A stretch of 38,289 bases of DNA from Pseudanabaena mucicola FACHB-723 (lineage in GTDB: Bacteria; Cyanobacteriota; Cyanobacteriia; Pseudanabaenales; Pseudanabaenaceae). The stretch lies in the NCBI RefSeq assembly GCF_014696385.1, contig NZ_JACJQB010000032.1, positions 1-38,289 of the forward strand, in the 5' to 3' direction. Positions 13,592-26,926 of the stretch are shown one piece after another. The translations under genes and the position numbers were made by a program. Positions within the stretch are counted from its first letter, which is position 1, and the number at the start of each line of letters is the position of its first letter. The notes under the pieces were generated by a model. It searched no databases. It was given only the letters and a program-made list of their open reading frames with translations, and was not told where the DNA came from.

Positions 13592-15222
13592 GATTTTACC
13601 TCTTTAATCAACTGCAAATAATCATCACGAAAGTGACGCAAGGTACTCACAATCGGATTGGGAGCAGATTGTCCTAATCCGCACAGGCTCATGGATTTGA
13701 CCATGCCGCAGAGTTCTTCGAGGCTAGCGAGATCGGCTTCTGTCGCATTGCGATCAATAAATTTGCTGAGTAACTGATGCAGTTGCACCGTACCCGCCCG
13801 ACAGGGCACACATTTACCGCAAGATTCATCCATACAGAATTGAATGAAAAATCGCGCCATATCAACCATGTTGGTGTTTTCATCCATGACCACCATGCCA
13901 CCCGAACCGATGATCGAGCCAAGGGCTTGCATCGCTTCATAATCGATGGGCGTATCAAAGGCTGAGGCAGGAATACAACCTCCTGACGGGCCGCCTGTCT
14001 GCACTGCCTTTACCTTGCCACCACTTGCCGTGCCGCCGCCCATATCTTCAACAATTTGGCGGAGGGGAATACCCATTGGCACTTCCACTAGTCCTGTATT
14101 CGCGATATTGCCTGCGAGGGAAAATACCTTGGTGCCTTTGCTCTTTTCTGTGCCGATGCTGGCATACCATGCGCCGCGATTGCGAATGATCGGGACGATA
14201 TTGGCGAAGGTTTCCACATTATTGATCAGGGTCGGTGCGCCCCATAGTCCAGATTCGGCGGGATAGGGAGGACGAGGGTGGGGAATGCCGCGACCGCCCT
14301 CAATGGAGGCAATTAGCGCCGTTTCTTCACCGCAAACATAAGCCCCTGCGCCAACCCGCACATCAATCTTAAAGTCAAAGGTAGATTCAAAAATTTGACT
14401 GCCAAGAATGCCCTGTTGCTTAGCTTGCTGAATCGCCAAACGGATATGCTCAATCGCTGGGGGATATTCAGCCCGCACATAGACATAGCCATGGGTTGCA
14501 CCCACAGCATAGGCGGCGATTGCCATGCCTTCCAGCACTCGATGCGGATCACTTTCTAAAATACTGCGATCCATAAATGCCCCTGGGTCACCCTCATCGG
14601 CATTACAGATCACATATTTTTGTTGCGGCTGATTGGGATTTTGCGACTGACTACGCCGCCGATCCTGCATTTTGGCAACCGTTGCCCATTTCAAACCTGT
14701 AGGATAGCCCGCACCACCACGCCCCCGTAAACCACTGCGGGTAACTTCATCAATTACTTGCTGTGGAGTCATTTCATGGAGGGTGCGATAGAGCTGGCGA
14801 TAGCCACCAACCGCGATATAGGGCTCGATGCGGGTGGGATCAATTTGTCCAATATGTTCTAAGACAATCCGCAACTGTTGCTTAAAAAATGGATGCTCGA
14901 GATCGCCAACTGTGGCAGTGACGTTACCACCCTTTAATCCACTCACAATCGAAGCTGCTTGATCATCCCTAACCTGCTCATAGAGAACAAGGGCAGAATC
15001 GATCGCCACTAAAGGCCCACGTCCGCAAAAGCCCATGCAGCCAACACTCACCACCTCAGCAGTGTCGGCTAAGCCTTCGGCATTAATCGCTGCCTCAAGT
15101 CGATCGCGCACTGCTAACGAGCCAGAGGCTTGACATCCGCCCGAAGTGCAACAACGAATCCGAATACTCTTTTGTCGATCGCGTTCTTCCTTAGCAATTT
15201 GTAATAGCCCTTCAATATCCAT
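13588..15222 (-). CDS. hoxF: Hydrogenase diaphorase subunit HoxF (NAD(P)H-, FMN-binding)
   Basis: 544 residues. The N-terminal thioredoxin-like [2Fe-2S] domain has CTSGGC (Cys25, Cys30) and GCMGFCG (Cys62, Cys66). The NuoF-like core follows: GRGGAGYPTGLKW for FMN/NADH, ICNADEGDPGAFMDRS, and GAGAYVCGEETALIASIEG. The C-terminal [4Fe-4S] motif ESCGKCVPCRAGT lies near 460-470, with a later Cys in SLCGLGQSAPNP. It is the entry/exit point for pyridine nucleotide electrons. It starts 2 bp after hoxE and ends overlapping the Psb28-like gene. Confidence 0.98.
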   Translation of the reverse strand: MDIEGLLQIAKEERDRQKSIRIRCCTSGGCQASGSLAVRDRLEAAINAEGLADTAEVVSVGCMGFCGRGPLVAIDSALVLYEQVRDDQAASIVSGLKGGNVTATVGDLEHPFFKQQLRIVLEHIGQIDPTRIEPYIAVGGYRQLYRTLHEMTPQQVIDEVTRSGLRGRGGAGYPTGLKWATVAKMQDRRRSQSQNPNQPQQKYVICNADEGDPGAFMDRSILESDPHRVLEGMAIAAYAVGATHGYVYVRAEYPPAIEHIRLAIQQAKQQGILGSQIFESTFDFKIDVRVGAGAYVCGEETALIASIEGGRGIPHPRPPYPAESGLWGAPTLINNVETFANIVPIIRNRGAWYASIGTEKSKGTKVFSLAGNIANTGLVEVPMGIPLRQIVEDMGGGTASGGKVKAVQTGGPSGGCIPASAFDTPIDYEAMQALGSIIGSGGMVVMDENTNMVDMARFFIQFCMDESCGKCVPCRAGTVQLHQLLSKFIDRNATEADLASLEELCGMVKSMSLCGLGQSAPNPIVSTLRHFRDDYLQLIKEVKS

Positions 15223-15224
15223 AT

Positions 15225-15752
15225 TTACGACTCCTCGATCCAGCTTTTGACCGTGGCTAAGACCTGCTCAGGGGTCTGTTGGCGGGATATATGTCCGTCA
15301 TAAATCGCCGCAGGTGCAACCCCGCAGTTACCAATACAGCGCTCGACCCGCAGAAATACTTTGCCATCTGGCGATCGCATTCCTGCTTTAAGCCCTAATT
15401 CTTGTCTCAGAATATCAAGCAATGCTTTCCCCCCCTTGGTGTAGCAAGCAGTCCCTAGACAAATAGAGCAGGTATGTTTGCACTTAGGCTGTACAGAAAA
15501 TAAATGATAGAAAGTAGCAACCCCATAGACCCGACTCAGGGGCATTTTTAATTCTCTGGCGATGTAGGTGAGGACATCCTTTTCGAGATAGCCAAACTGC
15601 TCCTGTGCCTTGTGCAATACTTCAATCAGGGCATCTTGACGGCTACGGTGTTGACGAATTGTTAAATCAAGAGCTTGGAAACGCGGATCTTGCGATCGCA
15701 ATCGGAGTTGCGCTTCTTGATGAGTGGTTGGAAAAGTCTGTTGTGTTGGCAT
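15225..15752 (-). CDS. hoxE: Hydrogenase diaphorase subunit HoxE
   Basis: 175 residues of the NuoE family. The [2Fe-2S] ligands are Cys98 and Cys103 (CLGTAC) with Cys139 and Cys143 (CIGNC). The upstream helical part FGYLEKDVLTYIARELKMPLS is typical of the family. HoxE completes the diaphorase module and is thought to help electron exchange with ferredoxin or membranes. It is the first gene of the operon hoxE-F-psb28-like-U-Y-H; the region upstream (15753-16122) is shared with the divergent hoxW unit. Confidence 0.97.
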   Translation of the reverse strand: MPTQQTFPTTHQEAQLRLRSQDPRFQALDLTIRQHRSRQDALIEVLHKAQEQFGYLEKDVLTYIARELKMPLSRVYGVATFYHLFSVQPKCKHTCSICLGTACYTKGGKALLDILRQELGLKAGMRSPDGKVFLRVERCIGNCGVAPAAIYDGHISRQQTPEQVLATVKSWIEES

Positions 15753-15869
15753 GATTACCCCATCCTGTTAACTCATGACCGTTAGCAAATTGCCAAATTT
15801 GAAAGCATTCTGCACTGCTTTTATTTTCTGACTTTTAGTTAGGGGCAAATCAAAAGGGCAGTAAAACTT

Positions 15870-15899
15870 AATTTATGTTTTACATAAGTTTTTGTTCAA
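15870..15899 (-). promoter_or_regulatory. Candidate hoxE promoter with palindrome in the spacer
   Basis: On the minus strand, TTGAAC (15899-15894) and TAAATT (15875-15870) are spaced by 18 bp, compatible with a housekeeping promoter about 120 bp before hoxE. A palindrome TTATGT-TTT-ACATAA occupies 15873-15887, that is the spacer and the edge of the -10. This is a place where a regulator could act. LexA and AbrB-type proteins are known to bind hox promoters in other cyanobacteria; no specific protein is implied by the sequence. Confidence 0.35.
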
Positions 15900-15987
15900 C
15901 AATATTTGTTTACAAAAAGCTTCACACTAATTCATCAATTAGATGCAAGTTTAAAAAATCTCGCAATGAAGGTTTTGCTAAGAGAAT

Positions 15988-16020
15988 AAATAAAGGTATT
16001 GCTTCACAATGCCTTTATTT
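15988..16020. terminator. Stem-loop in the hoxE-hoxW intergenic region
   Basis: Bases 15988-16001 pair with 16007-16020 over 14 positions with one G-T type mismatch and a CTTCA loop. The apex resembles the TTC-loop hairpins elsewhere in the window (5763, 23979). It stands between divergent genes, so it does not end a recognised transcript. It may belong to an intergenic repeat family or end a short unannotated RNA. Confidence 0.5.
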
Positions 16021-16058
16021 AGGATTTAATTTCTATTAATTTTACTGAAGAGAAATGT

Positions 16059-16094
16059 ATAAATACAATCACTAGCGAGACAATAAATACAATC
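16059..16094. repeat. 12-bp direct repeats upstream of hoxW
   Basis: ATAAATACAATC occurs at 16059-16070 and again at 16083-16094, a spacing of 24 bp, ending about 28 bp before the hoxW start. Direct repeats at roughly two helical turns are a common operator arrangement, but no known consensus is matched. The rest of the 15753-16122 gap is A/T-rich with no further gene. Confidence 0.4.
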
Positions 16095-16122
16095 CTATTT
16101 ATGTCTTATCTAGGTTAAAAAA

Positions 16123-16641
16123 TTGGCTAATTCTAATTTTGGATCAATTCTCGTAATTGGCTATGGTAACTCCCTTAGAAGTGATGACGGAGCAGGGTGT
16201 CAAGTCGCTGATATCGTCGCTAGTTGGCATTTACCTTACGTGCGATCACTCACAGTACATCAACTCACTCCCGAATTAGCAGAACCAATCGCCGCTTCTG
16301 AATTAACAATTTTTATTGATGCCTATGCAGGAGAATTTATCAAGAAGCGCGACAAATTAGCCATCCAAGTCAAAAAGATTGCGATCGCAAAATCTGAACT
16401 AGTTACTCATGGGAATTCTTCAATCTTGACAGGGGTTGGACATTTTTCTGATCCGCGATCGCTGCTATTACTATCACAACAAATCTATGGCAAAACACCG
16501 ACTGCCTACACATTATTATTACCTGCCGTAAATTGGGAATTTGGCGAACAGATATCGGCGGTCACTCGTAAAAGTATTGAGCAAGCTGTTGATTTTCTCA
16601 GAAACCTATGCACGAAATTAGTATCATCCAGTCAATGCTAG
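16123..16641 (+). CDS. hoxW: Hydrogenase maturation protease HoxW
   Basis: 172 residues of the HybD/HyaD protease family. The N-terminus VIGYGNSLRSDDGAG is the classic GN-L--DDG motif; Asp66 (FIDAYAG) and His107 (GHFSDPRSLL) correspond to the other nickel-sensing positions of the family. The enzyme cuts the C-terminal tail of HoxH after His450 once nickel is in place. The only suitable start is a TTG at 16123, preceded by AGG about 9 nt upstream; the nearby ATG at 16101 is in another frame and stops at once. The gene is divergent from hoxE and overlaps hypA by 34 nt. Confidence 0.93.
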   Translation: MANSNFGSILVIGYGNSLRSDDGAGCQVADIVASWHLPYVRSLTVHQLTPELAEPIAASELTIFIDAYAGEFIKKRDKLAIQVKKIAIAKSELVTHGNSSILTGVGHFSDPRSLLLLSQQIYGKTPTAYTLLLPAVNWEFGEQISAVTRKSIEQAVDFLRNLCTKLVSSSQC

Positions 16642-16949
16642 ACATTGCCTTTGACCAAGCCCAAAGTCAAGGCGCAAATCATATCCATCAACTACGTCTG
16701 CGCGTAGGCATTCTTTCAGGAGTAGTTCCTGAAGCCTTAAAGTTCGCCTTTGATGCTTGTACCAAAGATACGATCGCCGCCGATGCCAAACTGGAAATCG
16801 AATGGGTCAAGGCAATCTGCTACTGTCCGCAATGCCATGCCGAATTTTCGCCCCATGATTGGGTTTATGTTTGCCCTCGTTGCGAGCAGCTCAGTCACGA
16901 AATTCGCCAAGGTCGAGAACTACAATTAGTCTCTTTGGAGGTTTCTTAA
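16608..16949 (+). CDS. hypA: Hydrogenase nickel-insertion protein HypA
   Basis: 113 residues, standard HypA length. It begins MHEISI with the nickel-binding His2-Glu3 motif and has the structural zinc site CPQC (73, 76) with CPRC (89, 92). HypA passes nickel, with HypB, to the HoxH precursor. The ATG lies inside the end of hoxW, and hypB starts 1 nt after the stop, so all three genes form one coupled transcript. Confidence 0.97.
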
Positions 16950-16950
16950 T

Positions 16951-17763
16951 ATGTGTCAAGATTGCGGCTGCGGTGATATTCCTGAAGGAATGGTACAGAT
17001 ACATACCCATCATGATCATGCCCATGGGCATGACCACAATCATGATCACGGGCATAGCCACAATCATGATCATTTCCATCCTCACGATCATCTGAGCTTA
17101 GAGAATAATCGCCGCACCATTGCCGTTACCCAATCAGTTTTATCCCAAAACGATCGCCTTGCCGAGCGCAACCGTGGCTACTTCATGGCGAAAGGGTTAG
17201 GCGTTTTAAATATGCTATCTTCCCCTGGTGCTGGCAAAACTGCCCTCCTAGAACGCACCCTCACAGAATTACAGGATCGCTTACCCGCCGCCGTAATTGT
17301 GGGCGATCTAGCAACGGATAATGATGCCGCCAGATTAAGGCGATCGGGGGCGGAAGTGATTCAAATTACAACGGGGTCAGTTTGCCATTTAGAAGCAGAC
17401 ATGATCGCTCAAGCCTTGCAGCAAATGCACCTTGACGGTGTGAAATTATTAGCGATCGAAAATGTTGGCAATCTCGTCTGTCCTGCTGCCTATGATCTAG
17501 GCGAAAAGTTGCGCGTAGTTATCTTTTCGGTCACCGAAGGCGAAGACAAACCCTTAAAGTATCCTGTCATGTTCAAGACAGCAGATATCGTGGTGATTAG
17601 CAAAATTGACTTAGCGGAAATTGTGGAATTTAACCGAGATCTCGCACTCCAGAATATTCGCCAGATCGCGCCACAGGCAAAAATTATCGAACTATCGGCA
17701 AAAAGTGGGGAGGGAATGCCCGCTTGGTGTAACTTGATCGAGAGCTGCTGCCAAGTATATTAG
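16951..17763 (+). CDS. hypB: Hydrogenase nickel GTPase HypB with histidine-rich N-terminus
   Basis: 270 residues. The N-terminus has the high-affinity nickel motif C-x2-C-G-C (Cys2, Cys5, Cys7) and then a run from about residue 17 to 47 in which 16 of 31 residues are His, alternating with Asp, Gly and Asn, a nickel-storage region. The GTPase domain follows with the P-loop SSPGAGKT (90-97), [11 protein letters not shown], the conserved GSVCHLEA cysteine and SKIDLAE for guanine recognition. HypB drives GTP-dependent nickel insertion into HoxH together with HypA. The DNA of the His run is a low-complexity CAT/GAC repeat. It ends the hoxW-hypA-hypB unit. Confidence 0.97.
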
Positions 17764-17775
17764 AAACTAAAACCC

Positions 17776-17814
17776 AAGAACGAGTGACGGTACATCGCGC
17801 CACCAATCGTTCTT
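17776..17814 (+). terminator. Weak stem-loop after hypB
   Basis: AAGAACGA (17776-17783) pairs with TCGTTCTT (17807-17814) across 23 nt. The upstream flank AAAACCCAAGAA (17769-17780) is identical to the start of the strong hairpin after parB (23978-23989), so this looks like a decayed member of the same family. It may partly separate hypB from the next gene. Confidence 0.4.
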
Positions 17815-17832
17815 GAAGCTATAGTTTTAACC

Positions 17833-19404
17833 ATGAAAAACTTCTATCAAGACTCCAATCAAGATTTAGATAATTACCAATCATTCCTACAACCCATGGA
17901 TGACTATAATCAAGCCCTGCTTGCTGAAGTCCATCCTAGCAATTGGATCAATCCCACCCCAGCACCATGCTATGACTTGGTGGTAATTGGGGCAGGAACA
18001 GCAGGACTAGTCGTTGCCGCAGGAGCGGCAGGACTAAAACTAGGTCTAAAAATTGCGCTCATCGAAAAGCATCTCATGGGCGGCGATTGCCTTAATTTTG
18101 GTTGCGTTCCCTCAAAATGTATCATTCGTTCATCACGAGTAGCTGCCGATATCCGCGATGCTGCCGCCTTTGGCATTCATCCCCCTAGCCCTATTGAGAT
18201 TGACTTTGCCGCAGTCATGCAAAGGATGCGTCAACTGCGATCGCAAATTAGTCACCATGACTCCGCAACTAGATTTCAAAATCTGGGCGTTGATGTATTT
18301 TTCGGGTCGGCAAAATTTATCAATGACCATACCGTAGAAGTCAATGACTCCCAATTACGGTTCAAGAAAGCAGTGATCGCCACAGGAGCAAGGGCAGCCC
18401 ATCCTCAAGTAACAGGACTAGCAGAAACAGGATATCTCACTAACGAAACCGTCTTTAATCTCACCGAACGTCCTCAACGTCTCGCCGTGATTGGTGGTGG
18501 CCCAATTGGGTGCGAACTGGCGCAAGCCTTTCAGCGTTTAGGTTGTGCCGTCACCTTAATTCATAAAAATGTTCACCTGCTCGATTGTGAAGATGCCGAT
18601 GCCGCCGAAATTATTCAAACCACTTTATTGCGTGAAGGTATTCAGGTTTTGCTGAAGGCAAAGCTGGAACGGGTGGAGCAAATAGGGACAGAAAAGGTCA
18701 TTCACTACCAACAAGATGGAGTAGTCAAGAGCGTCTGTGTCGATCAGATTTTGGTTGGAGCAGGGCGCGTCCCCAATGTCGATGGCTTAAATCTAGAAGC
18801 GGCAGACGTAAAATATGATTCGCATCAAGGCGTGATGGTCAATGACTATTTGCAAACCAGCAATCCGAAAATCTATGCCGCAGGCGATATCTGCTCATCT
18901 TGGAAGTTTACCCATGCCGCCGATGCCGCCGCCCGTATCGTGATCAAAAATACACTGTTCTCTCCCTTTGGCATCGGGCGCAGCAAAGTTAGTGATCTCG
19001 TTATGCCTTGGGTAACTTTTACCGATCCTGAAATTGCCCATGTGGGCATGTATGCCGAGGATGCGATCGCAAAAGGCATTGCCACTAGTGAGATTAAAAT
19101 TCCCTTTACATCAGTTGATCGCGCGATCTTTGATGGCGAGACGGAGGGCTTTGTGAAAATATTGCATCAACAGAATTACGATCGCATTCTCGGTGCGACG
19201 ATTGTGGCGCGTCATGCTGGCGAAATGATTAGCGAAATTAGTTTTGCGATCGCATCCAAGCAGGGATTAAATTCATTATCCAAGGTGATTCATTCCTATC
19301 CCACCCAAGCCGATGCCATCAAAAAAGCCGCCGATGCCTATCGCAAGACCTTACTCACTCCCCGCACTCAATCGATTTTAAAAATATTAGCTAAGCTTAG
19401 TTAA
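17833..19404 (+). CDS. MerA/lipoamide-dehydrogenase-like FAD oxidoreductase
   Basis: 523 residues of the class I pyridine nucleotide-disulphide oxidoreductase family. A 45-residue acidic/polar N-terminal extension precedes the FAD motif GAGTAGL (53-59). The redox-active pair is GGDCLNFGCVPSK (Cys86, Cys91). An NAD(P)-binding motif VIGGGPIGCE lies near residue 220, a second FAD motif IYAAGDI in the C-terminal half, and the dimerisation domain ends with HSYPTQADAIKKAADAYRKT. It lacks the N-terminal metal-binding domain and the C-terminal Cys pair of true mercuric reductase, so Hg(II) reduction is not assured. Database names for such proteins often read mercuric reductase. It starts an apparent four-gene unit with the arsenite methyltransferase 24 bp downstream, suggesting a role in metalloid or thiol redox chemistry; that is inference. 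Confidence 0.85.
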   Translation: MKNFYQDSNQDLDNYQSFLQPMDDYNQALLAEVHPSNWINPTPAPCYDLVVIGAGTAGLVVAAGAAGLKLGLKIALIEKHLMGGDCLNFGCVPSKCIIRSSRVAADIRDAAAFGIHPPSPIEIDFAAVMQRMRQLRSQISHHDSATRFQNLGVDVFFGSAKFINDHTVEVNDSQLRFKKAVIATGARAAHPQVTGLAETGYLTNETVFNLTERPQRLAVIGGGPIGCELAQAFQRLGCAVTLIHKNVHLLDCEDADAAEIIQTTLLREGIQVLLKAKLERVEQIGTEKVIHYQQDGVVKSVCVDQILVGAGRVPNVDGLNLEAADVKYDSHQGVMVNDYLQTSNPKIYAAGDICSSWKFTHAADAAARIVIKNTLFSPFGIGRSKVSDLVMPWVTFTDPEIAHVGMYAEDAIAKGIATSEIKIPFTSVDRAIFDGETEGFVKILHQQNYDRILGATIVARHAGEMISEISFAIASKQGLNSLSKVIHSYPTQADAIKKAADAYRKTLLTPRTQSILKILAKLS

Positions 19405-19428
19405 GTAGTTCAATATCAACAAATAACC

Positions 19429-20397
19429 ATGACCTATCTCGAAACCACTGCCAAATTTTATGCAGAAGCCGCCGAAAGTCCTCAAATTGGACTGTGCTGC
19501 ATTAGCACCCCACCTTTACAATTTCCTGATCTCAAAATCCCTCAAATCATCTACCAGATGAACTATGGCTGCGGCACAACCATCCAACCTACCGAACTCG
19601 TAGGTTCACCAACGGTGCTATACATCGGTGTTGGTGGTGGTCTAGAAGCATTGCAATTTGCTTACTTCTGTCGTCGTCCCTCCGCAGTTATTGCCGTTGA
19701 TCCAGTTGCAGAAATGCGTGCAGCCGCCACCCGTAACCTCCAACTCGCCGCCCAAGAAAATGCGTGGTTTGATCCAAGCTTTGTCAAAATCCTTGATGGT
19801 GATGCCTTCGCTCTACCTGTCCCCGATGCCTCGGTAGATGTGGTCGCCCAAAATTGCCTCTTTAATATTTTTGAACCTGCGGACTTACAAAAAGCATTAA
19901 AGGAAGTCTATCGAGTTCTCAAGCCTAAGGGTAGATTAATCATGAGTGACCCCATCGCTACTCGTCCAATTCCTGCACATCTGCAAGCCGATCAACGACT
20001 CCGCGCCATGTGCATTTCAGGAGCAATGACCTATGCGGAATACACCCAACATCTGATCGATGCTGGCTTTGGACAGGTAGAAATTCGCGCCCGTCGTCCC
20101 TATCGCCTCCTTGATACCCATAGCTTTGACTTAGATCAGCCTTTGTTATTAGAAAGTCTTGATTCCGTATCGTTTAAAGTTCCCATTCCTGCGGATGGTG
20201 CTTGTATCTTTACTGGCAAAACTGCCATTTATCAAGGACAAGACGAACTACTCGACGATCATGCGGGTCATGTATTACTCTGCAGCAATCCGATCGCCGT
20301 TTGCGATAAAACTGCAGCAAAGCTCGGCTCACAATTCCCCCAAAAGGTGCTCATCACAGATTCCACTTGGCATTACAACGGCGGGGGCTGTTGCTAA
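19429..20397 (+). CDS. arsM: ArsM-type arsenite S-adenosylmethionine methyltransferase
   Basis: 322 residues with a class I methyltransferase domain: LYIGVGGGLEAL as motif I, acidic Asp91 ending the second strand, and LDGDAFALPVPDASVDVV. Cysteines expected for As(III) binding are present at Cys48 (NYGCGTT), Cys143 (AQNCLFNIFEP) and Cys195 (MCISGAM). Further cysteines occur at Cys23-Cys24 and in the terminal GGGCC. The architecture and N-terminus match the cyanobacterial ArsM group associated with arsenosugar biosynthesis. Methylation detoxifies arsenite and feeds arsenosugars/arsenolipids. The radical SAM partner ArsS is not in the window. It is followed after 2 nt by a membrane hydroxylase-like gene. 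Assignment is good; the final arsenic product cannot be inferred. Confidence 0.85.
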   Translation: MTYLETTAKFYAEAAESPQIGLCCISTPPLQFPDLKIPQIIYQMNYGCGTTIQPTELVGSPTVLYIGVGGGLEALQFAYFCRRPSAVIAVDPVAEMRAAATRNLQLAAQENAWFDPSFVKILDGDAFALPVPDASVDVVAQNCLFNIFEPADLQKALKEVYRVLKPKGRLIMSDPIATRPIPAHLQADQRLRAMCISGAMTYAEYTQHLIDAGFGQVEIRARRPYRLLDTHSFDLDQPLLLESLDSVSFKVPIPADGACIFTGKTAIYQGQDELLDDHAGHVLLCSNPIAVCDKTAAKLGSQFPQKVLITDSTWHYNGGGCC

Positions 20398-20399
20398 CC

Positions 20400-21209
20400 A
20401 TGGCAAACGAAGTGCTGATTCGTTTATCTTTTTTCTTGGGTACGTTAATCCTAATGACGCTGTGGGAAATACTTGCCCCACGAAGACCACTCCTGATTTC
20501 TAAACGACTGCGTTGGTTTAGTAACCTCAGTTTAGTAGTTTTGAATACGTTGATCCTCAGAGCAGTTTTTCCCTTAGCGGCAGTAGGTGCGGCGGCGATC
20601 GCCAGTGCTAAAGGGTGGGGACTCTTTAATGTTATTTCCCTTACCGAATGGCAAGCTGTACTGCTATCGGTGATCGCCTTAGACCTGATCATCTATTTCC
20701 AGCATGTCATCTTTCACAGCTTGCCCACACTCTGGCAACTCCACAAAGTCCACCACTGCGATCGCGATTTTGATGTAACCACAGGGCTAAGATTTCACCC
20801 CATCGAGATCTTGTTATCCATGGGCATCAAAATTATCGCGATTACATTACTCGGTGCGCCGCCTACCGCCGTGATCATTTTTGAAATTTTGCTCAACTCC
20901 ACATCCTTGTTTAACCATGGCAATGTCGGCTTGCCACCCAGCCTCGATCGCTTGCTGCGATTGTTTGTAGTTACTCCCGACATGCACCGCATCCATCATT
21001 CCATCATCACCAAAGAAACTAATAGCAATTTTGGCTTTAATTTACCTTGGTGGGATTATCTATTCGGAACTTATCGCGCCTATCCTGAAAAGGGACAGCA
21101 AGAGATGACCATCGGGCTAGCCGAATATCAAAACACTCTTCAGGTGGAACAATTACCTTGGATGCTGTTACTTCCTTTTTTGAAGATATCCAACAGGAGC
21201 CAGACATAA
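20400..21209 (+). CDS. Fatty acid hydroxylase / sterol desaturase family membrane protein
   Basis: 269 residues with four or more hydrophobic segments and the di-iron histidine boxes of the family: H102-x3-H106, H115-x2-H118-H119, His133, His173 and H196-x2-H199-H200, followed by the typical NSNFG...WWDYLFGTY block. Such enzymes hydroxylate or desaturate lipids in the membrane using O2. The ATG at 20400 lies 2 nt after the arsM stop. A longer in-frame reading from 20367 would run within arsM and is less likely. Tight linkage to arsM and to a TVP38-type membrane protein suggests a lipid-modifying step tied to this operon, possibly arsenolipid-related; that link is speculative. Confidence 0.88.
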   Translation: MANEVLIRLSFFLGTLILMTLWEILAPRRPLLISKRLRWFSNLSLVVLNTLILRAVFPLAAVGAAAIASAKGWGLFNVISLTEWQAVLLSVIALDLIIYFQHVIFHSLPTLWQLHKVHHCDRDFDVTTGLRFHPIEILLSMGIKIIAITLLGAPPTAVIIFEILLNSTSLFNHGNVGLPPSLDRLLRLFVVTPDMHRIHHSIITKETNSNFGFNLPWWDYLFGTYRAYPEKGQQEMTIGLAEYQNTLQVEQLPWMLLLPFLKISNRSQT

Positions 21210-21211
21210 TT

Positions 21212-21955
21212 ATGAATGCTAGGCATAAACAACTAACTCAGTTTACTTCTTGCCTGTTTTTGATTGCGATCGCAATTTTGTTACTATCAGCTCCCGCCTT
21301 TGCCGAGACCGCAACCGCAACTCAAGGGTTTAATCCTCAAGAATTACTGCGCGAGTCGTTGAAATGGATCAACAGCTTAGGATATATCGGCGGCATTGTC
21401 TTTATGTTGATTTACATCATTGCCACCGTCGCTTTTTTACCAGGATCAATTTTAACGTTGGGGGCAGGCGTAGTATTTGGAGTAGTAGTTGGCACAGTCT
21501 ATGTATTTATCGGCGCAACCTTAGGATCAATCGCCGCTTTTTTAGTCGGTCGTTACTTAGCACGGAGTTGGGTCGCTCAAAAGATTGCAGGAAATTCCAA
21601 ATTCACAGCGATCGATCGTGCCGTTGCCCATGAAGGCTTCAAAATTGTCCTGTTAACCCGACTCTCACCGATCTTTCCTTTTAACTTACTTAACTATGCC
21701 TTTGGGATTACAGGAGTCAGCCTCAAAGACTATACACTTGCCTCCATCGGCATGTTTCCGGGAACTGTGATGTATGTCTATATCGGATCATTAGCAGGAG
21801 ATCTGGCGAGAATTGGTGGAGACAATCCACCAACCGAACCTACTCTGCAATGGATCATTAGGATTGTCGGATTTATTGCCACAGTTGCCGTCACCATCTA
21901 TGTGACTCGCATTGCTCAAAAAGCTCTTGCCGAAAAGGTTAGTGGAGAAAGGTGA
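21212..21955 (+). CDS. TVP38/TMEM64 (VTT-domain) membrane protein
   Basis: 247 residues from the ATG at 21212, which lies 2 nt after the preceding stop with an AGGAG 12 nt upstream. The N-terminal hydrophobic segment ends APAFA-ET and could be a signal peptide. The VTT domain follows: YIIATVAFLPGSILTLGAG, GATLGSIAAFLVGRY, then the re-entrant motif LLTRLSPIFPFNLLNYAFG and FPGTVMYVYIGS. Known members act in membrane lipid movement (DedA/VTT scramblase-like) or are linked to metal and stress genes. It closes the MerA-like/arsM/hydroxylase unit. The 290-bp gap after it (21956-22245) holds no gene or strong hairpin that I can support. Confidence 0.88.
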   Translation: MNARHKQLTQFTSCLFLIAIAILLLSAPAFAETATATQGFNPQELLRESLKWINSLGYIGGIVFMLIYIIATVAFLPGSILTLGAGVVFGVVVGTVYVFIGATLGSIAAFLVGRYLARSWVAQKIAGNSKFTAIDRAVAHEGFKIVLLTRLSPIFPFNLLNYAFGITGVSLKDYTLASIGMFPGTVMYVYIGSLAGDLARIGGDNPPTEPTLQWIIRIVGFIATVAVTIYVTRIAQKALAEKVSGER

Positions 21956-22245
21956 AAAAATTTCTGTAAGTAGCTATAGCAATTCTCATACTGGTGAGGT
22001 AAAGACAAAGAAATTCAGCCCCTTGTTTAGCTAGCTTAATCTGTACCTTGCTAGGCTAGAAACCCCTATACAGACTGGATTATAGGTTTTATAGTCTTAC
22101 ATTCAGTCGCCCTCCCTCATTTAAAAATCATAAAAATAATGGACAAAATACTTTGACCATCGTGTTTGAGGTGTTGGAATATCTATCACCAAAGTCAACA
22201 CAAACCGCTATGCTTGCTTGTAATAAATGTCATAAAATGCTACCC

Positions 22246-23010
22246 ATGACACATGTAATTGCATTTTTCAACCAATCAGGTGGCGTTGGCAAAACCACGA
22301 TTACTCAAAATATTGGATATCAACTCACCACCAAAGGATACCGAGTCTTGCTACTCGACATGGATCCTCAAGCTTCCCTGACAACATTTATGGGCTTAGA
22401 TGTTGCTCAACTAGACAAAACTATTTATGACGCACTGGTATCAGAAACCGATGAACCTTTAGCAATTTTGCACGATTTGCACAGTATGGACTTGTCGCCC
22501 GCCAATATCATTTTGGCAAATGCTGAACAGGAGCTAGTGCTAGCCGATCAACGGGAATTGCGCTTAAAATTGCCACTATCACAGGTGCTAGACAACTATG
22601 ATTTTGTGTTGATTGATTGTCCCCCTAGTCTTGGCATCCTTAGTCAGATCAGCCTTGTAGCTGCCACAGAAATTATTGTGCCAATTCAAACTCAATTTAA
22701 GGCTTTGATGGGTACAGATTTTCTGCTCAGTACCGTCAAAAAAGTGCAACGAAGGCTCAATAAAACCTTAAAAATCGCAGGTTTCATTCCGACGATGTAC
22801 TCTTCGGCAAATGCCCTCGATCAGCGCACCCTTGAAACAATTATTGAGCAATTATCGCCGATCGCGCAGGTGTTTTCTCCAATTCCCCGAGCCACTGCCA
22901 TTGCGGAAGCGTCAGAATATGGGAAGCCCCTAGCAATCTCACCGAAGAGAAACACTGCAATTTTAGACATTTTTGAAGAGATTACCATTGCCCTAGAGAA
23001 ACTATCATGA
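22246..23010 (+). CDS. parA: ParA-type partition ATPase
   Basis: About 254 residues from the ATG at 22246, which places the ATPase motif near the N-terminus as is normal. In-frame ATG and TTG codons upstream (22210, 22153) would add residues without family similarity. The deviant Walker A reads NQSGGVGKTT, with Ser where most ParA proteins have the signature Lys. LLDMDPQASLT, LIDCPPSL and the switch regions follow. ParA pattern-forming ATPases move ParB-bound DNA for partition of plasmids or chromosomes. It overlaps parB by an ATGA junction. Along with the downstream replication gene and iterons it suggests a plasmid-type stability module. Confidence 0.9.
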   Translation: MTHVIAFFNQSGGVGKTTITQNIGYQLTTKGYRVLLLDMDPQASLTTFMGLDVAQLDKTIYDALVSETDEPLAILHDLHSMDLSPANIILANAEQELVLADQRELRLKLPLSQVLDNYDFVLIDCPPSLGILSQISLVAATEIIVPIQTQFKALMGTDFLLSTVKKVQRRLNKTLKIAGFIPTMYSSANALDQRTLETIIEQLSPIAQVFSPIPRATAIAEASEYGKPLAISPKRNTAILDIFEEITIALEKLS

Positions 23011-23957
23011 CCATGAAACCAAAGTTGAAGCCAAATGCTCATCGCATCAAGCTCAAAAATGTTGCTCTATTTGATGAACAAGATGCTGATATCAAGGGTG
23101 AGTCAACTAATGCGATCGCAATTTCCAAGATCGTTTTACCAAGCCAACAACCGCGCCACTATTTTGATCCTGACAAAATGGCATCCTTAGTCGATTCCGT
23201 CCGTACCCATGGCATTCTTGAACCAGTGCTATTGCGATCGCTAGATAATGGAACCTATGAATTAGTCGCAGGGGAACGTCGATATCGGGCGGCTCAAGAA
23301 GTTGGGCTAGAGCAAATCCCTGCGGTAGTGCGGCAGATGAGCGAAATAGAGGCTTGGCAAATTGCCCTAATTGAGAACCTGCAACGCGAGGATATTAACC
23401 CCGTTGAAGAGACGGAGGCAATTTTGCAGCTATTAGGCTTAAAGCTGAGTCTGCCGATCGATGCCGTCAAGTCACAGCTTTATCAAATGCGACACATTTC
23501 CCGTGGCGAAGTTGACCAGAGCGCTTTGACGAATCCTGAAAATATCGAAACAATTAAGACAGTATTTAATTCCGTAGGTTTGAAATGGGAGTCTTTTATC
23601 ACTTCTCGGCTACCACTTTTAAAGCTCCCCTTTGAAGTGTTGGAGGCTCTGCGCCAAGGGAGACTAGAGTACACCAAGGCTCATGCAATCGCAAAGATTA
23701 AAGATGCCACCGCAAGGCAACAGATGTTAAATACGGTCATCGAGGAGGGATTGTCTTTAGTCCAAATTCGCGATCGCATTACGGCGTTGCCCCAAGTTAG
23801 CAATTCTCACCAAAATGAAAATAGTTTTAAGATTCAAGTCGATCACACTTTGCGATCGTTAAAAAAATCAAAGATTTGGAGTGATCCGACAAAACAAGAA
23901 CGCCTCGCCCAATTGATGCAGCAAATTGAAGAGCTAATTACTGATGTAGCAAAGTAA
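23007..23957 (+). CDS. parB: ParB-type partition CTPase / DNA-binding protein
   Basis: 316 residues. The ParB/Srx-like CTPase domain shows ISKIVLPSQQPRHYF, LVAGERRYRAAQ and ENLQREDINPVEETEA. A helix-turn-helix region with TKAHAIAKI and a C-terminal dimerisation part follow. The start overlaps parA by 4 nt. ParB binds parS sites and stimulates ParA. No canonical parS palindrome is obvious in the flanks. The middle domain is longer than in chromosomal ParB, which fits a plasmid-type protein, but that is not conclusive. Confidence 0.92.
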   Translation: MTMKPKLKPNAHRIKLKNVALFDEQDADIKGESTNAIAISKIVLPSQQPRHYFDPDKMASLVDSVRTHGILEPVLLRSLDNGTYELVAGERRYRAAQEVGLEQIPAVVRQMSEIEAWQIALIENLQREDINPVEETEAILQLLGLKLSLPIDAVKSQLYQMRHISRGEVDQSALTNPENIETIKTVFNSVGLKWESFITSRLPLLKLPFEVLEALRQGRLEYTKAHAIAKIKDATARQQMLNTVIEEGLSLVQIRDRITALPQVSNSHQNENSFKIQVDHTLRSLKKSKIWSDPTKQERLAQLMQQIEELITDVAK

Positions 23958-23978
23958 GAGTTAGCTAGGACAAAATCA

Positions 23979-24021
23979 AAACCCAAGAAGTGAGTTGCGA
24001 CGCAACTCACTTCTTGGGTTT
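23979..24021 (+). terminator. Perfect 20-bp terminator hairpin after parB
   Basis: Bases 23979-23998 are exactly complementary to 24002-24021 around a GAC loop, 22 nt after the parB stop. A short T-rich tail follows (GGGTTTCTAAG). The GTTGC-NNN-GCAAC apex is the same as in the terminator at 5763-5813. Confidence 0.8.
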
Positions 24022-24094
24022 CTAAGCAAAACTTTGATTGCTATATTTAATACACAAATCAATCTGCTTGATCTAAGATATATGAGTATTAGAT

Positions 24095-24787
24095 GTGAAG
24101 ATTTTACTTGCTGAAGATGAACTTGACTTAGGCAATGCGATCCAACGCAGTCTCAAGCAAGAGAAATATATTGTTGATTGGGTTAAGGATGGGGAAGAAG
24201 CTTGGGCGTATCTCGACAACCAACCCACTGAATACAGCGTCGTCATTTTAGATTGGATGCTGCCTTATCGATCGGGTATTGAAATCTGCAAGCAATTGCG
24301 TCAAGCCCACAATCCTATCCCTGTCTTGATTCTGACCGCAAAAGATCGCATTGAAGATCGGGTAACAGGACTAGACGCTGGGGCTGATGACTATTTAGTA
24401 AAGCCCTTTGGCATGTTAGAACTATTGGCAAGATTGCGAGCCTTACAAAGACGCTCACCCCAGATCCAATCTCCACAATTAGAAGTTGCTAATCTGATTC
24501 TGGATTATAGTAGCTCGACCATCAGCAGTATTGATCCACAGGGCAATCGTCAGAGTATTCAACTAACCGCCAAAGAGTTTCAACTCTTGGAATACTTCAT
24601 GCAACATCCCAATCAAATCTTGACTCGCGATCAAATTATCAGTCGGCTCTGGGAAGTCCAAGCAGAACCCGAAAGCAATGTGGTTGCCGCCCAAATTCGC
24701 TTGCTGCGCCGCCGTCTCGCCGAGCATGGTCATGGGAAATTAATTGAAACAATCTATGGTCTAGGGTATCGGCTCAATGCACCATAA
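24095..24787 (+). CDS. rppA: OmpR-family response regulator, RppA/NrsR-like
   Basis: 230 residues. The receiver domain has the acidic pair in LLAEDELDLG, phospho-acceptor Asp53 (ILDWMLPYRSG) and Lys in DYLVKPFG. A winged-helix DNA-binding domain closes with TIYGLGYRLN. The sequence strongly resembles cyanobacterial RppA; in Synechocystis the same pair is also known as NrsR/NrsS and responds to nickel and redox state. The start is a GTG at 24095, because the overlapping ATG at 24093 is stopped immediately. It overlaps its kinase gene by 11 nt. Its presence in the same window as a nickel hydrogenase is suggestive but unproven. Confidence 0.85.
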   Translation: MKILLAEDELDLGNAIQRSLKQEKYIVDWVKDGEEAWAYLDNQPTEYSVVILDWMLPYRSGIEICKQLRQAHNPIPVLILTAKDRIEDRVTGLDAGADDYLVKPFGMLELLARLRALQRRSPQIQSPQLEVANLILDYSSSTISSIDPQGNRQSIQLTAKEFQLLEYFMQHPNQILTRDQIISRLWEVQAEPESNVVAAQIRLLRRRLAEHGHGKLIETIYGLGYRLNAP

Positions 24788-26129
24788 CCGCATTTTCCTG
24801 AAAGCACGCATATCCCTAGCACTGTGGTATGCAGGGGTGATGGGAGCAATTTTAGGGTTAGCAGGACTAGGTGCTTATCAAGTGATGGCTCATGCCCATT
24901 GGCAAGGTGTTGATCAAGAATTAGCCGCCGTATCGGGCAATCTCCATGATGCCCTAGAGCCAAATCTAAACCAGTCAGGAGAAATTAGCATTGATGTCCA
25001 ACAAATTTTGCCCAACCTCTGCATTATCGGTACAGTTTGCGCAAAGGAAGGCAATCGCCATGTTTTAGGCATCACCCAACATAAAAGTTACTACATCAAG
25101 CTTTTGGATAACTCAGGTCGCGTCCTTGCTACCGTTGGTAATCCTCTAGGGTCATCATCTTTGCCCCATACAGTGACAGCATGGCAAACTCTTAGTGATA
25201 CACAGGGCAACCGCTATCATCAAGTGTCTTTATCACTCAAAAATCGTGTAGGAGAACCTTGGGGATATATCCAAGTAGGTCGCTCTCTCCAAGATTATGA
25301 CCAACACCTCCAAGAGTCAAAACTCGCCCTACTAACAGGACTACCGATCACATTTTTGCTGGTGAGTATTGCTAGTTGGTATTTATCAAGCAAGGCAATT
25401 CGTCCTGTCTATACTTCCTATCAACAAATTCAGCAATTTACCGCCGATGCCGCCCACGAAATCCGCACCCCTCTTGCTTCTATCCGCGCCACCGTGGAGT
25501 CAGTCCTATTAAGTAACCAAATTTCTGAAGCAGATACCCGTGAAACTCTCCAAACCATTAATCGTCAGACAGTCCGACTCTCGCAGTTAGTCCAAGATTT
25601 GCTGATGCTGTCGCGCATGGACGTACAAGCTCCCCTGCCAATCCAAAAATCCTGTTGTCTGAATGATATCATCAGCGACTTAATCGAGGAACTAGCAGCA
25701 ATCTCGATGCAGGCAAAAATCACGATTAAATTAAAATTAATCAACCATATACCTATTTACGCAATTGGAAATGAAGAACAAATCTATCGCCTAATTTTCA
25801 ACATTTTCATTAATGCCATTCATTACACCCCCGCAGGTGGCACAGTTCAAATTGCTCTTGACACTAGCGATCGTCATGCTGTTGTCCGCATTGATGACAA
25901 CGGCATCGGCATCAACGCTGAAGATTTGCCCCATATTTTTGATCGCTTTTATCGCGCCCACAGTGATCGCTCCCGCCAAACAGGTGGCACGGGGCTAGGG
26001 CTAGCAATTGCGATCGCAATCGCCAAATCGCACCATGGCAATATTCAAGTTAATAGCCAACTAGGCAAAGGCAGTAGTTTCAGCATTCGCCTACCTCTTT
26101 GCGATCGAGCCAATTGCGATCGCACGTAG
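24777..26129 (+). CDS. rppB: Sensor histidine kinase, RppB/NrsS-like
   Basis: 450 residues with TM1 at about 13-37, an external sensor of about 145 residues containing Cys82 and Cys88, and TM2 at about 183-204. The H-box DAAHEIRTPLASIRAT places the phosphorylated His at 227. N, G1 and G2 boxes follow (NIFINAIHYT, DDNGIGI, GGTGLGLAIAIAI). There is no HAMP domain of normal length. It is encoded with its regulator in an 11-nt overlap. Nickel or redox sensing is taken from the RppB/NrsS family; no nrs-type efflux genes are nearby, so the target may differ here. Confidence 0.85.
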   Translation: MHHNRIFLKARISLALWYAGVMGAILGLAGLGAYQVMAHAHWQGVDQELAAVSGNLHDALEPNLNQSGEISIDVQQILPNLCIIGTVCAKEGNRHVLGITQHKSYYIKLLDNSGRVLATVGNPLGSSSLPHTVTAWQTLSDTQGNRYHQVSLSLKNRVGEPWGYIQVGRSLQDYDQHLQESKLALLTGLPITFLLVSIASWYLSSKAIRPVYTSYQQIQQFTADAAHEIRTPLASIRATVESVLLSNQISEADTRETLQTINRQTVRLSQLVQDLLMLSRMDVQAPLPIQKSCCLNDIISDLIEELAAISMQAKITIKLKLINHIPIYAIGNEEQIYRLIFNIFINAIHYTPAGGTVQIALDTSDRHAVVRIDDNGIGINAEDLPHIFDRFYRAHSDRSRQTGGTGLGLAIAIAIAKSHHGNIQVNSQLGKGSSFSIRLPLCDRANCDRT

Positions 26130-26312
26130 TGATTTTCTGCTCAATTTATTGCTCTTAATTTATCTAAAATATTTATAAGCCAAGTCAATTTTAGGCAAAT
26201 TAAAATTAAATTTCAAAATTTTGTGGATCATAGTTTGATCTATCAATGTATGCTTGATCTCAGTTTCTTTATTCACGAGAGGTTACAAAACATTGAATAT
26301 ATATACATACAT

Positions 26313-26352
26313 ATCAAAAAAGCCAGTGACTACAACTCACTAGCTTTTTGAT
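26313..26352. terminator. Stem-loop after the rppAB-like pair
   Basis: ATCAAAAAAGCCAGTGA (26313-26329) pairs with TCACTAGCTTTTTGAT (26337-26352), with one bulged A and one G-U. The outer stem is A/T-rich on both sides, so it can end transcripts in either direction. It separates the two-component pair from the iteron region. The stretch 26130-26312 before it is strongly A/T-rich and holds no gene. Confidence 0.65.
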
Positions 26353-26447
26353 GACCTGAAGGTCTTATTAAGTATTCTTATCCCAATCAGAGACTTGATC
26401 AGAGCTTAATCAGGAAAGAATAGAAAAAACAGAAACAGATCAGAAAT

Positions 26448-26573
26448 GAACAATAACCGGAGATGAACAGTAACCGGAAATGAACATCAAATGAAAACAG
26501 AAAACGGACATTAATCAGGAACAGACATTAATCAAAAATGAACATCAATCAGGAATGAACATTAATCATTAAT
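26448..26573. repeat. Iteron array, seven 17-bp direct repeats; probable replication origin
   Basis: Units of 17 bp, best form GAACATTAATCAGGAAT, lie head to tail at 26448, 26465 and 26482, then after a 7-bp spacer at 26506, 26523, 26540 and 26557. The middle TTAATCAGG part is kept best in units 4-7. Degenerate GAATCAGGAAT-like units continue to about 26650. The array sits 350 bp upstream of a CyRepA1-like replication gene and is flanked by A/T-rich DNA, the layout of an iteron-controlled plasmid origin. Single related sites at 26802-26811 (inverted) and 26831-26840 lie nearer the rep start and may serve autoregulation. Confidence 0.85.
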
Positions 26574-26607
26574 CACGAACTGAAAGAATCAGAAGCCGAA
26601 AAAAATC

Positions 26608-26805
26608 GGAAACGGATAGAATCAGGAATATACAGAATCAGAAACATACAAACATTTAAACGGATGTATGGCTTTCGAGGGCAATTTCGATCCTGTGTTC
26701 TATCTTAATACAAGATAAGAGTTTCGCAACAGTTTTTGTTATAATTTTTTGCCAAATTTTGTACAAATAAACTGCCCGCTAAAGCTAAATCATCTATCCG
26801 TTTCC
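26608..26805. repeat. 13-bp inverted repeat flanking the A/T-rich part of the origin
   Basis: GGAAACGGATAGA at 26608-26620 recurs inverted at 26793-26805, bounding a 170-bp A/T-rich segment. Both copies adjoin iteron-like TCAGG sequences. This could mark a Rep-binding or melting zone of the origin, or promote looping of the rep promoter. Confidence 0.55.
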
Positions 26806-26926
26806 TGATTAAAAACCCTACAAACTTTATAATCAGGACATCTCAAGTGTTAGACAAATTTTTAGCCCCACTGTGGCAGACCAATAAAAAAATTGTAAAA
26901 AATCTGATAATTGGAGGACAAAAATA

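Follow-up and report, generated by a model that had tools for sequence, protein, structure and literature searches.

The window analyzed here, a 38,289-nt stretch of Pseudanabaena mucicola FACHB-723, contains a compact four-gene unit that may well be a variant of the cyanobacterial gene cluster to which the synthesis of arsenic-containing sugars (arsenosugars) is attributed, a reading in which we have moderate confidence. The unit comprises four intact reading frames on the + strand, which encode a MerA-like FAD/NAD(P)H disulfide oxidoreductase of 523 amino acids (positions 17833 to 19404; NF004991), ArsM, an arsenosugar-type arsenite methyltransferase of 322 amino acids (19429 to 20397; NF038099), a 269-residue membrane protein of the fatty-acid-hydroxylase/sterol-desaturase superfamily (FAH; 20400 to 21209; PF04116), and a 247-residue TVP38/TMEM64 membrane protein of the VTT/DedA superfamily (21212 to 21955; PF09335). 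The intergenic gaps are 24, 2, and 2 nt; the close packing described in the first-pass annotation was thus borne out, with all frames intact and all family scores above the cut-offs, and the four genes are presumably cotranscribed. Besides this gene content and intact active-site residues, the argument is carried by the recurrent clustering of ArsM and ArsS with TVP38 and MerA-like genes and, less often, with FAH.

ArsM scored 559.6 bits against the arsenosugar ArsM model NF038099 (cut-off, 400), and in an alignment with the arsenite methyltransferase structure 5evj its Cys48, Cys143, and Cys195 fall on cysteines. The conserved cysteines of ArsM enzymes bind arsenic. The flavoprotein, which has the redox motif CLNFGC (Cys86/Cys91), scored 832.9 bits against the FAD-containing oxidoreductase model NF004991 (cut-off, 620) and 395.2 bits against the MerA equivalog TIGR02053, which is under the cut-off of 454.45. 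A C-terminal cysteine pair is the feature of MerA that serves Hg(II) transfer; the flavoprotein ends in ...LAKLS, its last cysteine is residue 354 of 523, and it does not have this pair. Its identification as MerA was rejected on the basis of the TIGR02053 score.

FAH gave 101.7 bits against PF04116 (FA_hydroxylase; cut-off, 31), and its histidine clusters are intact, with His102, His106, His115, His118, His119, His133, His173, His196, His199, and His200 invariant across 34 sequences. For the structure model of FAH (pLDDT = 86.9), the top aligned chain was the hydroxylase domain of Scs7p (4zr1, Z = 7.9; 4zr0, Z = 6.9; next unrelated row, 2.4), the best hit among PDB sequences for the FAH profile had an E value of only 0.85, and no structure matched the model in Foldseek at E <= 0.001, so that the substrate is not readable from the structure. 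The name OlsE (ornithine lipid hydroxylase) was rejected for FAH (NF052566, 82.6 bits; cut-off, 475), as was UptA (undecaprenyl phosphate transporter) for the TVP38 protein (NF052604, 25.1 bits; cut-off, 250), which scored 103.6 bits against the VTT family PF09335 (cut-off, 33.9). The TVP38 protein of the window is presumably a member of COG0398. The COG0398 DedA proteins are described in PMC10127716 as putative phospholipid flippases/scramblases whose commonest fusion partners are FAD disulfide oxidoreductases.

On the contig of the window, no TIGR04167 (ArsS) match was found at E <= 0.001, arsS does not adjoin arsM, and positions 15001 to 27000 contain no ArsS remnant (best tblastn E = 0.30). 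The earlier statement that ArsS is missing therefore stands for this contig and fails for the genome, in which an intact ArsS is encoded on another contig (G000:C1:111050-111982; TIGR04167, 413.9 bits; cut-off, 300); this copy rules out the loss of ArsS. It is 74 to 80% identical to the ArsS proteins of 17 further family loci, none of which lies beside ArsM, and only 40 to 43% identical to the ArsM-linked ArsS proteins of the family.

The spacing between hypB and the flavoprotein gene is 69 nt, and this gap holds a hairpin (17763 to 17828, + strand; RNA fold of -20.5 kcal/mol, z = -4.7) that is kin to a dispersed repeat (four partial matches at three other places in the genome, 77 to 81%) and probably lies outside the unit proper. 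A promoter and terminator scan gave sites no commoner than in shuffled sequences, and hypB was not found adjoining MerA-ArsM at the other such loci read. Operon continuity with the hyp genes was rejected because of the gap, the strong repeat-related hairpin, and the absence of hypB from those loci, which leaves the first-pass view of the unit as a direct continuation of the hydrogenase maturation genes unsupported. The contig itself looks plasmid-type: it encodes ParA and ParB, and a 1066-residue protein, for which NCBIfam and Pfam yield no name, has counterparts with 57 to 68% identity on nine Pseudanabaena plasmids.

The linkage that the first-pass annotation had proposed to look for in other genomes was largely recovered. 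Among the 23 ArsM loci of the family, from which L058 was dropped for want of a full ArsM and the ArsM of G001, split over contigs L056 and L057, was excluded, 21 have TVP38 and 6 have a MerA-like gene no more than 5 kb from ArsM. ArsS is counted at 5 of these loci and not 6, because the "ArsS" of L036 is a false positive, the ArsS of that genome lying elsewhere. The order ArsM, ArsS, TVP38, MerA-like is found in other cyanobacterial families (L135, L143, and L146), and plasmid pPg_02 of P. galeata has the order HK-RR-TVP38-'mercuric reductase'-ArsM-TVP38-ArsS; in the wider survey, 20 of 56 ArsM places were read. Both the ArsM-TVP38 and the MerA-ArsM linkage in cyanobacteria look to be more than chance.

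FAH is a rarer partner, with orthologs in 3 of 38 family genomes, beside ArsM in two (2 of the 23 ArsM loci) and away from it in one. Genome G010 has the ArsM-FAH order of the window with a different spacer, and TVP38 was not found nearby. No arsenic biosynthesis gene was found near the FAH ortholog of G009 (L103) or near the FAH relatives of other cyanobacteria and their phylum (eight loci, L127 to L134), one of which has an ArsR-type match. The paralog control comprised 20 loci, of which L255 is the L240 locus itself, L253 is a second in-subfamily copy, and L254 and L257, where the FAH profile had no match, were left unjudged. None of the seven clean same-genome paralogs (L248 to L252, L256, and L258) has any listed neighbor in the stretch available. 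The cyanobacterial paralogs (L259 to L267) are not a clean control, since six of the nine adjoin an ArsR-type match (42 to 60 bits), a seventh has one 3.7 kb off, and two (L265 and L267) lie inside TIGR04283-TVP38-MerA-like runs.

In distant bacteria, too, linkage of this kind recurs, with MerA-like and TVP38 genes at ArsM/ArsS loci and with some relatives of FAH near arsenosugar-named genes. The loci sampled were the best 80 of at least 576 confirmed FAH relatives (55 to 72% identical to the FAH of the window), a selection biased to close relatives, and some stretches were short. Within these best 80, ArsS or the 'arsenosugar glycosyltransferases' TIGR04282 and TIGR04283 occur within 5 kb of FAH in 11, a TVP38-type gene is directly downstream in 23, and an ArsR-type match lies within 350 nt in 33; at a control distance of 6 to 8 kb, the corresponding counts were zero for VTT, ArsR, and TIGR04282/TIGR04283 and one for ArsS. 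All four families of the unit are present at one locus (L177). The FAD oxidoreductase showed no clear fall with distance around the 80 loci (0.017, 0.021, 0, and 0.011 per kb). In these distant bacteria, the linkage of FAH with ArsR, TVP38, and arsenosugar-named genes looks to be more than chance. The ArsR, VTT, ArsM, and other neighbor profiles were home-made, and that for ArsM is loose: its 41-bit match at L240 is doubtful, the ArsM of L174 reaches 169 of 263 bits with the best NCBIfam model, and the matches near 195 bits among 60 ArsS loci are taken as scored by this profile. NCBIfam models gave scores above their cut-offs for ArsS, TIGR04283, and TIGR04282 at L192, for ArsS at L218, and for NF004991 at L177.

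At the 60 ArsS loci, which were hand-picked for flank length from 118 rows in the phylum group of G334, the FAH subfamily occurs only once and an FAD oxidoreductase lies within 5 kb at 14. A TVP38 stretch was present at all eight FAD-oxidoreductase loci followed up (seven of the 14 and L181), and TVP38 and FAD stretches stand side by side at ArsS loci. The FAH of L325 is 45% identical to that of the window, below the range of the best 80 loci. ArsS is present in 29 of 49 FAH genomes, which represent 50 of the best 80 loci, but is frequent without regard to FAH as well, with 113 of 299 comparison genomes (Fisher p = 0.007), a group of unknown make-up that includes the FAH genome G334. On the FAH tree, several branches of which are long, an arsenosugar-linked label, broadly defined (ArsM- and mtnP-like matches counted, L240 left out), changes at least six times on well-supported branches and shows tighter clustering than most shuffled labels (as low in 2 of 500).

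With the chances about evenly balanced, we read the unit as a plasmid-type version of the ArsM/ArsS cluster for organoarsenicals (arsenosugars), with FAH and TVP38 on its membrane side. The scarcity of FAH at ArsS loci and at the ArsM loci of the family, the cyanobacterial FAH relatives with no arsenic biosynthesis gene nearby, the lack of a clear distance effect for the FAD oxidoreductase, and the commonness of ArsS in the comparison genomes weigh against this reading. ArsM methylates As(III), and ArsS, cooperating in trans from its distant contig, would adenosylate the dimethylarsenical, while the MerA-like flavoprotein may maintain the arsenical, or the thiol that carries it, in the reduced state. 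FAH and TVP38, the latter of a family with proposed phospholipid flipping or scrambling, would modify or redistribute a membrane lipid, possibly the carrier lipid of the arsenosugar; any lipid product, and with it an arsenolipid role of the unit, is putative. The presence of FAH with arsenosugar-type genes in some distant bacteria makes it a candidate for steps that link arsenic to membrane lipids. It is unlikely, in our estimate, that the FAH subfamily is the missing enzyme of arsenolipid biosynthesis, that is, a membrane di-iron hydroxylase that would act with a TVP38 flippase and a dedicated flavoprotein reductase on the lipid moiety of arsenosugar lipids, at a step after ArsM and ArsS, in cyanobacteria and several other phyla.

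FAH and TVP38 could possibly serve a general membrane defense that tunes lipids whenever thiophilic metals or reactive sulfur species stress the cell and makes no arsenic-containing lipid, in which case their presence in arsenic clusters would reflect that arsenic counts among these stresses; we give this reading tentative credence. Among the plasmid records with an FAH match (12 of 58 opened, one without annotation), relatives of FAH are found within a mer island and next to genes for copper ATPase, multicopper oxidase, CDF, and DUF411 proteins, and a divergent ArsR alone accompanies FAH on four further plasmids. The FAH-linked ArsR carries a fused rhodanese domain in all four cases scanned, and 13 FAH loci contain a protein cluster of which the single member scanned is DsrE. 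Together with the frequency of closely adjoining ArsR-type matches, these neighbors point to a wider metal or sulfur stress, and FAH is accordingly not arsenic specific. However, operon-like joins with ArsS, TIGR04283, and TIGR04282 recur across several phyla and are narrower than generic metal stress.

That FAH came as a mobile gene into a plasmid-borne cluster, where it sits between arsM and TVP38 as a passenger and has no arsenic role in this strain, seems quite improbable: the plasmid-like contig, with ParA, ParB, and the plasmid relatives of its 1066-residue protein, and the few FAH carriers in the family, one of them with the gene away from ArsM, would agree with such an origin, but the 2-nt gaps on both sides of FAH, the intact histidine clusters, the repetition of the ArsM-FAH order in G010 with another spacer and no TVP38 found near it, and the FAH-ArsS clusters of other bacteria argue against it. 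We consider it very improbable that the unit confers mercury and arsenic co-resistance, with the flavoprotein as a true mercuric reductase and ArsM as the arsenic arm. Mercuric reductases are among the nearest solved structures (5x1y, E = 1.1e-84), and the pPg_02 copy is annotated as one; however, the better fit to NF004991 than to MerA, the missing C-terminal cysteine pair, and the absence of any mer transport or regulator protein among the neighboring proteins that were profile-scanned speak against this function, as does the fact that, of the 29 family genomes with NF004991, 28 have a single match to it, irrespective of whether ArsM adjoins.

We know of no enzymes that convert the product of ArsS to lipid-bound arsenic, and the recurring clusters with TVP38, a MerA-like reductase, and in some cases FAH provide concrete candidates for these steps. 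In the open-access papers searched (subscription papers not covered), neither 'TVP38' nor 'sterol desaturase' ever occurred in one paper with 'arsenosugar', and the available portions of PMC7826186, PMC5552862, and PMC8911655 contain nothing linking FAH or TVP38 to ArsM. According to PMC12159101, cyanobacteria make both arsenosugars and arsenolipids (Miyashita 2012 and Xue 2014, cited therein), and ArsS, a radical SAM enzyme, has been characterized (Cheng 2021, cited therein).

Compared with the cyanobacterial ArsM-ArsS arsenosugar cluster (NF038099 and TIGR04167), the unit has the same ArsM family and, as recurrent neighbors, TVP38 and the MerA-like protein, whereas its ArsS is elsewhere in the genome and of another type, and an FAH gene separates arsM from the TVP38 gene. 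At the proteobacterial FAH-VTT-ArsS-TIGR04283(-TIGR04282) loci (L184, L192, L204, and L218), FAH of the same subfamily directly precedes the TVP38/VTT gene and the pair is joined to arsenosugar-named genes, as checked with NCBIfam for L192 and L218 only; ArsR adjoins FAH in L184, L192, and L218, and the sequence of L204 ends 0.9 kb upstream. Unlike the window, these loci gave no ArsM or MerA-like match in the DNA stretches examined. The Elusimicrobia contig L177 has the order PiT, radical SAM/ArsM-type fusion, FAH, TIGR04283-like, TIGR04282-like, an unnamed gene, TVP38, and MerA-like; its FAH, MerA-like, and TVP38 proteins are 58%, 55%, and 58% identical to those of the window, respectively. 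It differs in the interposed glycosyltransferase-like genes and in the ArsM-type domain, which is fused to the radical SAM domain, is 32% identical to the ArsM of the window, and scored 230.8 bits with the best ArsM model, under the cut-off of 263. Fused TVP38/FAD-oxidoreductase proteins, the COG0398 DedA fusions described in PMC10127716, have two domains in common with the unit, and such fusions are annotated on FAH-carrying plasmids of Acinetobacter and Pseudoalteromonas; in the window, by contrast, the two domains are encoded by separate genes with arsM and FAH between them.

The four genes of the unit lie on the forward strand with intact reading frames and spacers of 24, 2, and 2 nt, as the first-pass annotation described. 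Each product scores above the curated cut-off of its family model: the MerA-like flavoprotein (17833-19404) for NF004991 (FAD-containing oxidoreductase), ArsM (19429-20397) for NF038099 (arsenosugar-type ArsM), the fatty-acid-hydroxylase-family protein (FAH; 20400-21209) for PF04116 (fatty acid hydroxylase), and the TVP38 protein (21212-21955) for PF09335 (VTT). The flavoprotein contains the redox motif CLNFGC; it scores 395.2 bits against the MerA equivalog model (cut-off, 454.45), and no C-terminal cysteine pair is found in its sequence, so that it is MerA-like and not established as MerA. Its most probable role is that of a disulfide or arsenical reductase using NAD(P)H. Cys48, Cys143, and Cys195 of ArsM align with cysteines of the arsenite methyltransferase 5evj, and its family and active-site residues suggest that it would carry out the methylation step. 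Ten histidines of FAH (102, 106, 115, 118, 119, 133, 173, 196, 199, and 200) are invariant among 34 relatives. For the predicted FAH structure (mean pLDDT 86.9), the best alignment is to the hydroxylase domain of Scs7p (4zr1, Z 7.9), the nearest unrelated structure reaches only Z 2.4, and Foldseek returned no significant match; from its family, FAH is a putative O2-dependent membrane hydroxylase. TVP38 proteins are members of the DedA superfamily. Phospholipid scrambling is a proposed activity of the COG0398 group, whose commonest fusion partners are FAD disulfide oxidoreductases, according to the text of PMC10127716, a COG0398 DedA paper in whose text the word stem 'arsen' is absent.

ArsS had been regarded as missing, which is correct for the window's contig, where a profile search did not find it, but not for the genome, in which a copy on contig C1 scores 413.9 bits (cut-off, 300) among frames unrelated to the unit. 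ArsS adenosylates arsenic (Cheng 2021 as cited in PMC12159101), and the unlinked copy may cooperate with the window ArsM. The C1 protein shares 74 to 80% identity with the ArsS proteins of 17 further loci in the family Pseudanabaenaceae, those not adjoining ArsM, but only 40 to 43% with the ArsM-linked ArsS of five family loci; thus, two ArsS types circulate. In four family genomes (G013, G014, G005, and G033), ArsS is above its cut-off and ArsM is not; there, the enzyme may work with a different methyltransferase or in a different pathway.

The proposed continuity of the unit with the hydrogenase maturation genes found no support. The 69-nt spacer between hypB and the flavoprotein gene folds as a strong hairpin (z -4.7), an imperfect palindrome (17763-17828) with diverged partial copies (four matches) at three other places in the genome; it is a small dispersed repeat. 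Since hypB also did not turn up next to any other MerA-ArsM locus read, a single operon with the hydrogenase genes is unsupported. The region 22153-30127 encodes a ParA-like protein, a ParB-like protein, and a 1066-aa protein with 57 to 68% identity to proteins on nine Pseudanabaena plasmids, pPg_02 included, which suggests that the entire contig, with its hydrogenase and hyp genes, belongs to a plasmid (hypA and hypB are named by profile match; the hox genes are what we take them to be from sequence).

ArsM scores above cut-off in 23 of the 38 family genomes. Within 5 kb of ArsM at the 23 family loci read, TVP38 occurs at 21, the MerA-like protein at 6, ArsS at 5 (leaving out one false positive), and FAH at 2, namely, the window and G010; linkage in the family is the rule for ArsM and TVP38, is partial for the MerA-like protein, and rarely extends to FAH. 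FAH orthologs are present in 3 of the 38 genomes: that of the window, G010 (68% identity, adjoining ArsM), and G009 (71%, away from ArsM). G009 and G010 each have a TVP38-ArsS pair (L105 and L104) that is separate from MerA-ArsM. The order TVP38-MerA-like-ArsM-TVP38-ArsS is found at three family loci (L043, L049, and L051); L043 (G012:C3) corresponds to plasmid pPg_02 of Pseudanabaena galeata CCNP1313, on which an HK-RR pair lies upstream of the run.

Across 292 genomes of the phylum, ArsM was matched in 55 (E <= 1e-90) and FAH in 17 (E <= 1e-30), the window's genome among them. At the 20 phylum ArsM loci read, ArsS lies within 5 kb at 12, TVP38 and the MerA-like protein at 4 each, and FAH at none. 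Eight FAH relatives from other cyanobacteria and their phylum (L127 to L134; 38 to 72% identity) have no arsenic biosynthesis gene nearby and an ArsR-type match at one locus. TIGR04283-TVP38-MerA-like-FAH runs were detected with home-made profiles in two genomes (L265 and L267), with MerA-like proteins 64 to 66% identical to the window flavoprotein and more distant FAH proteins (33 to 34%).

A profile scan of species genomes gave 576 confirmed FAH loci, of which the best 80 were kept. Among these best 80, an ArsR-type gene lies within 350 nt of FAH at 33, a TVP38/VTT gene is directly downstream on the same strand at 23, and ArsS or the 'arsenosugar glycosyltransferases' TIGR04282 or TIGR04283 lie within 5 kb at 11; 15 loci are arsenosugar-linked once ArsM-like and mtnP-like matches count. 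At 6 to 8 kb, VTT, ArsR, TIGR04282, and TIGR04283 are at zero and ArsS has one match; FAD oxidoreductases show no clear drop with distance. NCBIfam matches were confirmed at L192 (ArsS, 445 bits; TIGR04283, 287; TIGR04282, 205) and L218 (ArsS, 441 bits), the other arsenosugar-gene calls at FAH loci being made with home-made profiles. L184 and L192 share the order ArsR-FAH-VTT-DsrE-ArsS-TIGR04283-TIGR04282, with DsrE named from one scanned member of its protein cluster. All four window families recur together at L177, from an Elusimicrobia MAG, in the order PiT, radical SAM/ArsM-type fusion, FAH, TIGR04283-like, TIGR04282-like, an unnamed frame, TVP38, and MerA-like. This MerA-like protein is above the NF004991 cut-off, at 827.9 bits, and the ArsM-type domain (230.8 bits against the 263-bit cut-off of its best model) shares one 885-aa frame (L177:1565-4222) with the radical SAM domain. 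Because TIGR04167 (ArsS) has no match at E <= 1e-40 in this genome (G359, a MAG of unstated completeness), the fusion may stand in for ArsS.

FAH matches occur on 58 plasmid records, of which 12 were opened, among them a Sinorhizobium record without annotation. FAH relatives lie inside a mercury-resistance island (Methylophaga), near a multicopper oxidase (Loktanella), flanked by ArsR and VTT, with a copper ATPase alongside (Roseibium), together with VTT, a CDF transporter, and DUF411 (Phaeobacter and Dinoroseobacter), or next to a divergent ArsR with no adjacent VTT (Fuscovulum, Limimaricola, Thioclava, and Sulfitobacter). On a Pseudoalteromonas plasmid, FAH adjoins a CDP-alcohol phosphatidyltransferase, with a TVP38/FAD fusion nearby. 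On an Acinetobacter portensis plasmid named for NDM-1 (L241, NZ_CP096121.1), its companions are mtnP, a phosphate transporter, a methyltransferase, the arsenosugar-named glycosyltransferases TIGR04282 and TIGR04283, DUF547, and another TVP38/FAD fusion.

None of seven same-genome FAH paralogs outside the subfamily has any listed neighbor; the cyanobacterial paralogs do not provide an equally clean control. In the reverse direction, 60 ArsS loci from the phylum group of G334 have, within 5 kb, FAD oxidoreductase at 14, TIGR04282 at 7, TIGR04283 at 6, VTT (by profile) at 4, and the window's FAH subfamily at only 1 (L325; order FAH-ArsS-TIGR04283-TIGR04282, its FAH 45% identical). Follow-up of eight FAD-oxidoreductase loci (L181 and seven from the 14) showed a TVP38 stretch at each. 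ArsS is found in 29 of 49 FAH genomes and in 113 of the 299 genomes used for comparison (p 0.007), which is weak support because the two groups differ in make-up. In a phylogeny of 114 FAH sequences, 17 rows carry the arsenosugar-linked label, which takes 11 changes. Well-supported branches force at least 6 of these, so the link has been gained or lost repeatedly. The FAH of the window clusters with that of L103 (support 98/86), within a nine-row clade (100/99) in which one row is from Desulfotignum and the other eight are cyanobacterial.

Taken as a whole, the unit has about an even chance of being an organoarsenical module. General metal/sulfur membrane stress, to which we assign about one third of the probability, draws on the rhodanese domain fused to FAH-adjoining ArsR in all four cases scanned and on the DsrE cluster at 13 FAH loci (best 80 of 576), which point to sulfane-sulfur or thiol stress no less than to arsenic. 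ArsR-rhodanese fusions adjoin the FAH subfamily at the proteobacterial loci L192, L158, L163, and L218, some with DsrE nearby; such loci are possibly a sulfane-sulfur-sensing membrane-lipid operon. As for the arsenolipid route suggested earlier, FAH is unlikely to be a specific arsenolipid enzyme.

ArsM/ArsS clusters and TVP38-FAD fusions are already known. Neither FAH recurring at some ArsM/ArsS clusters nor the layout seen in the window, where ArsS is supplied in trans, was found in the open-access literature searched.
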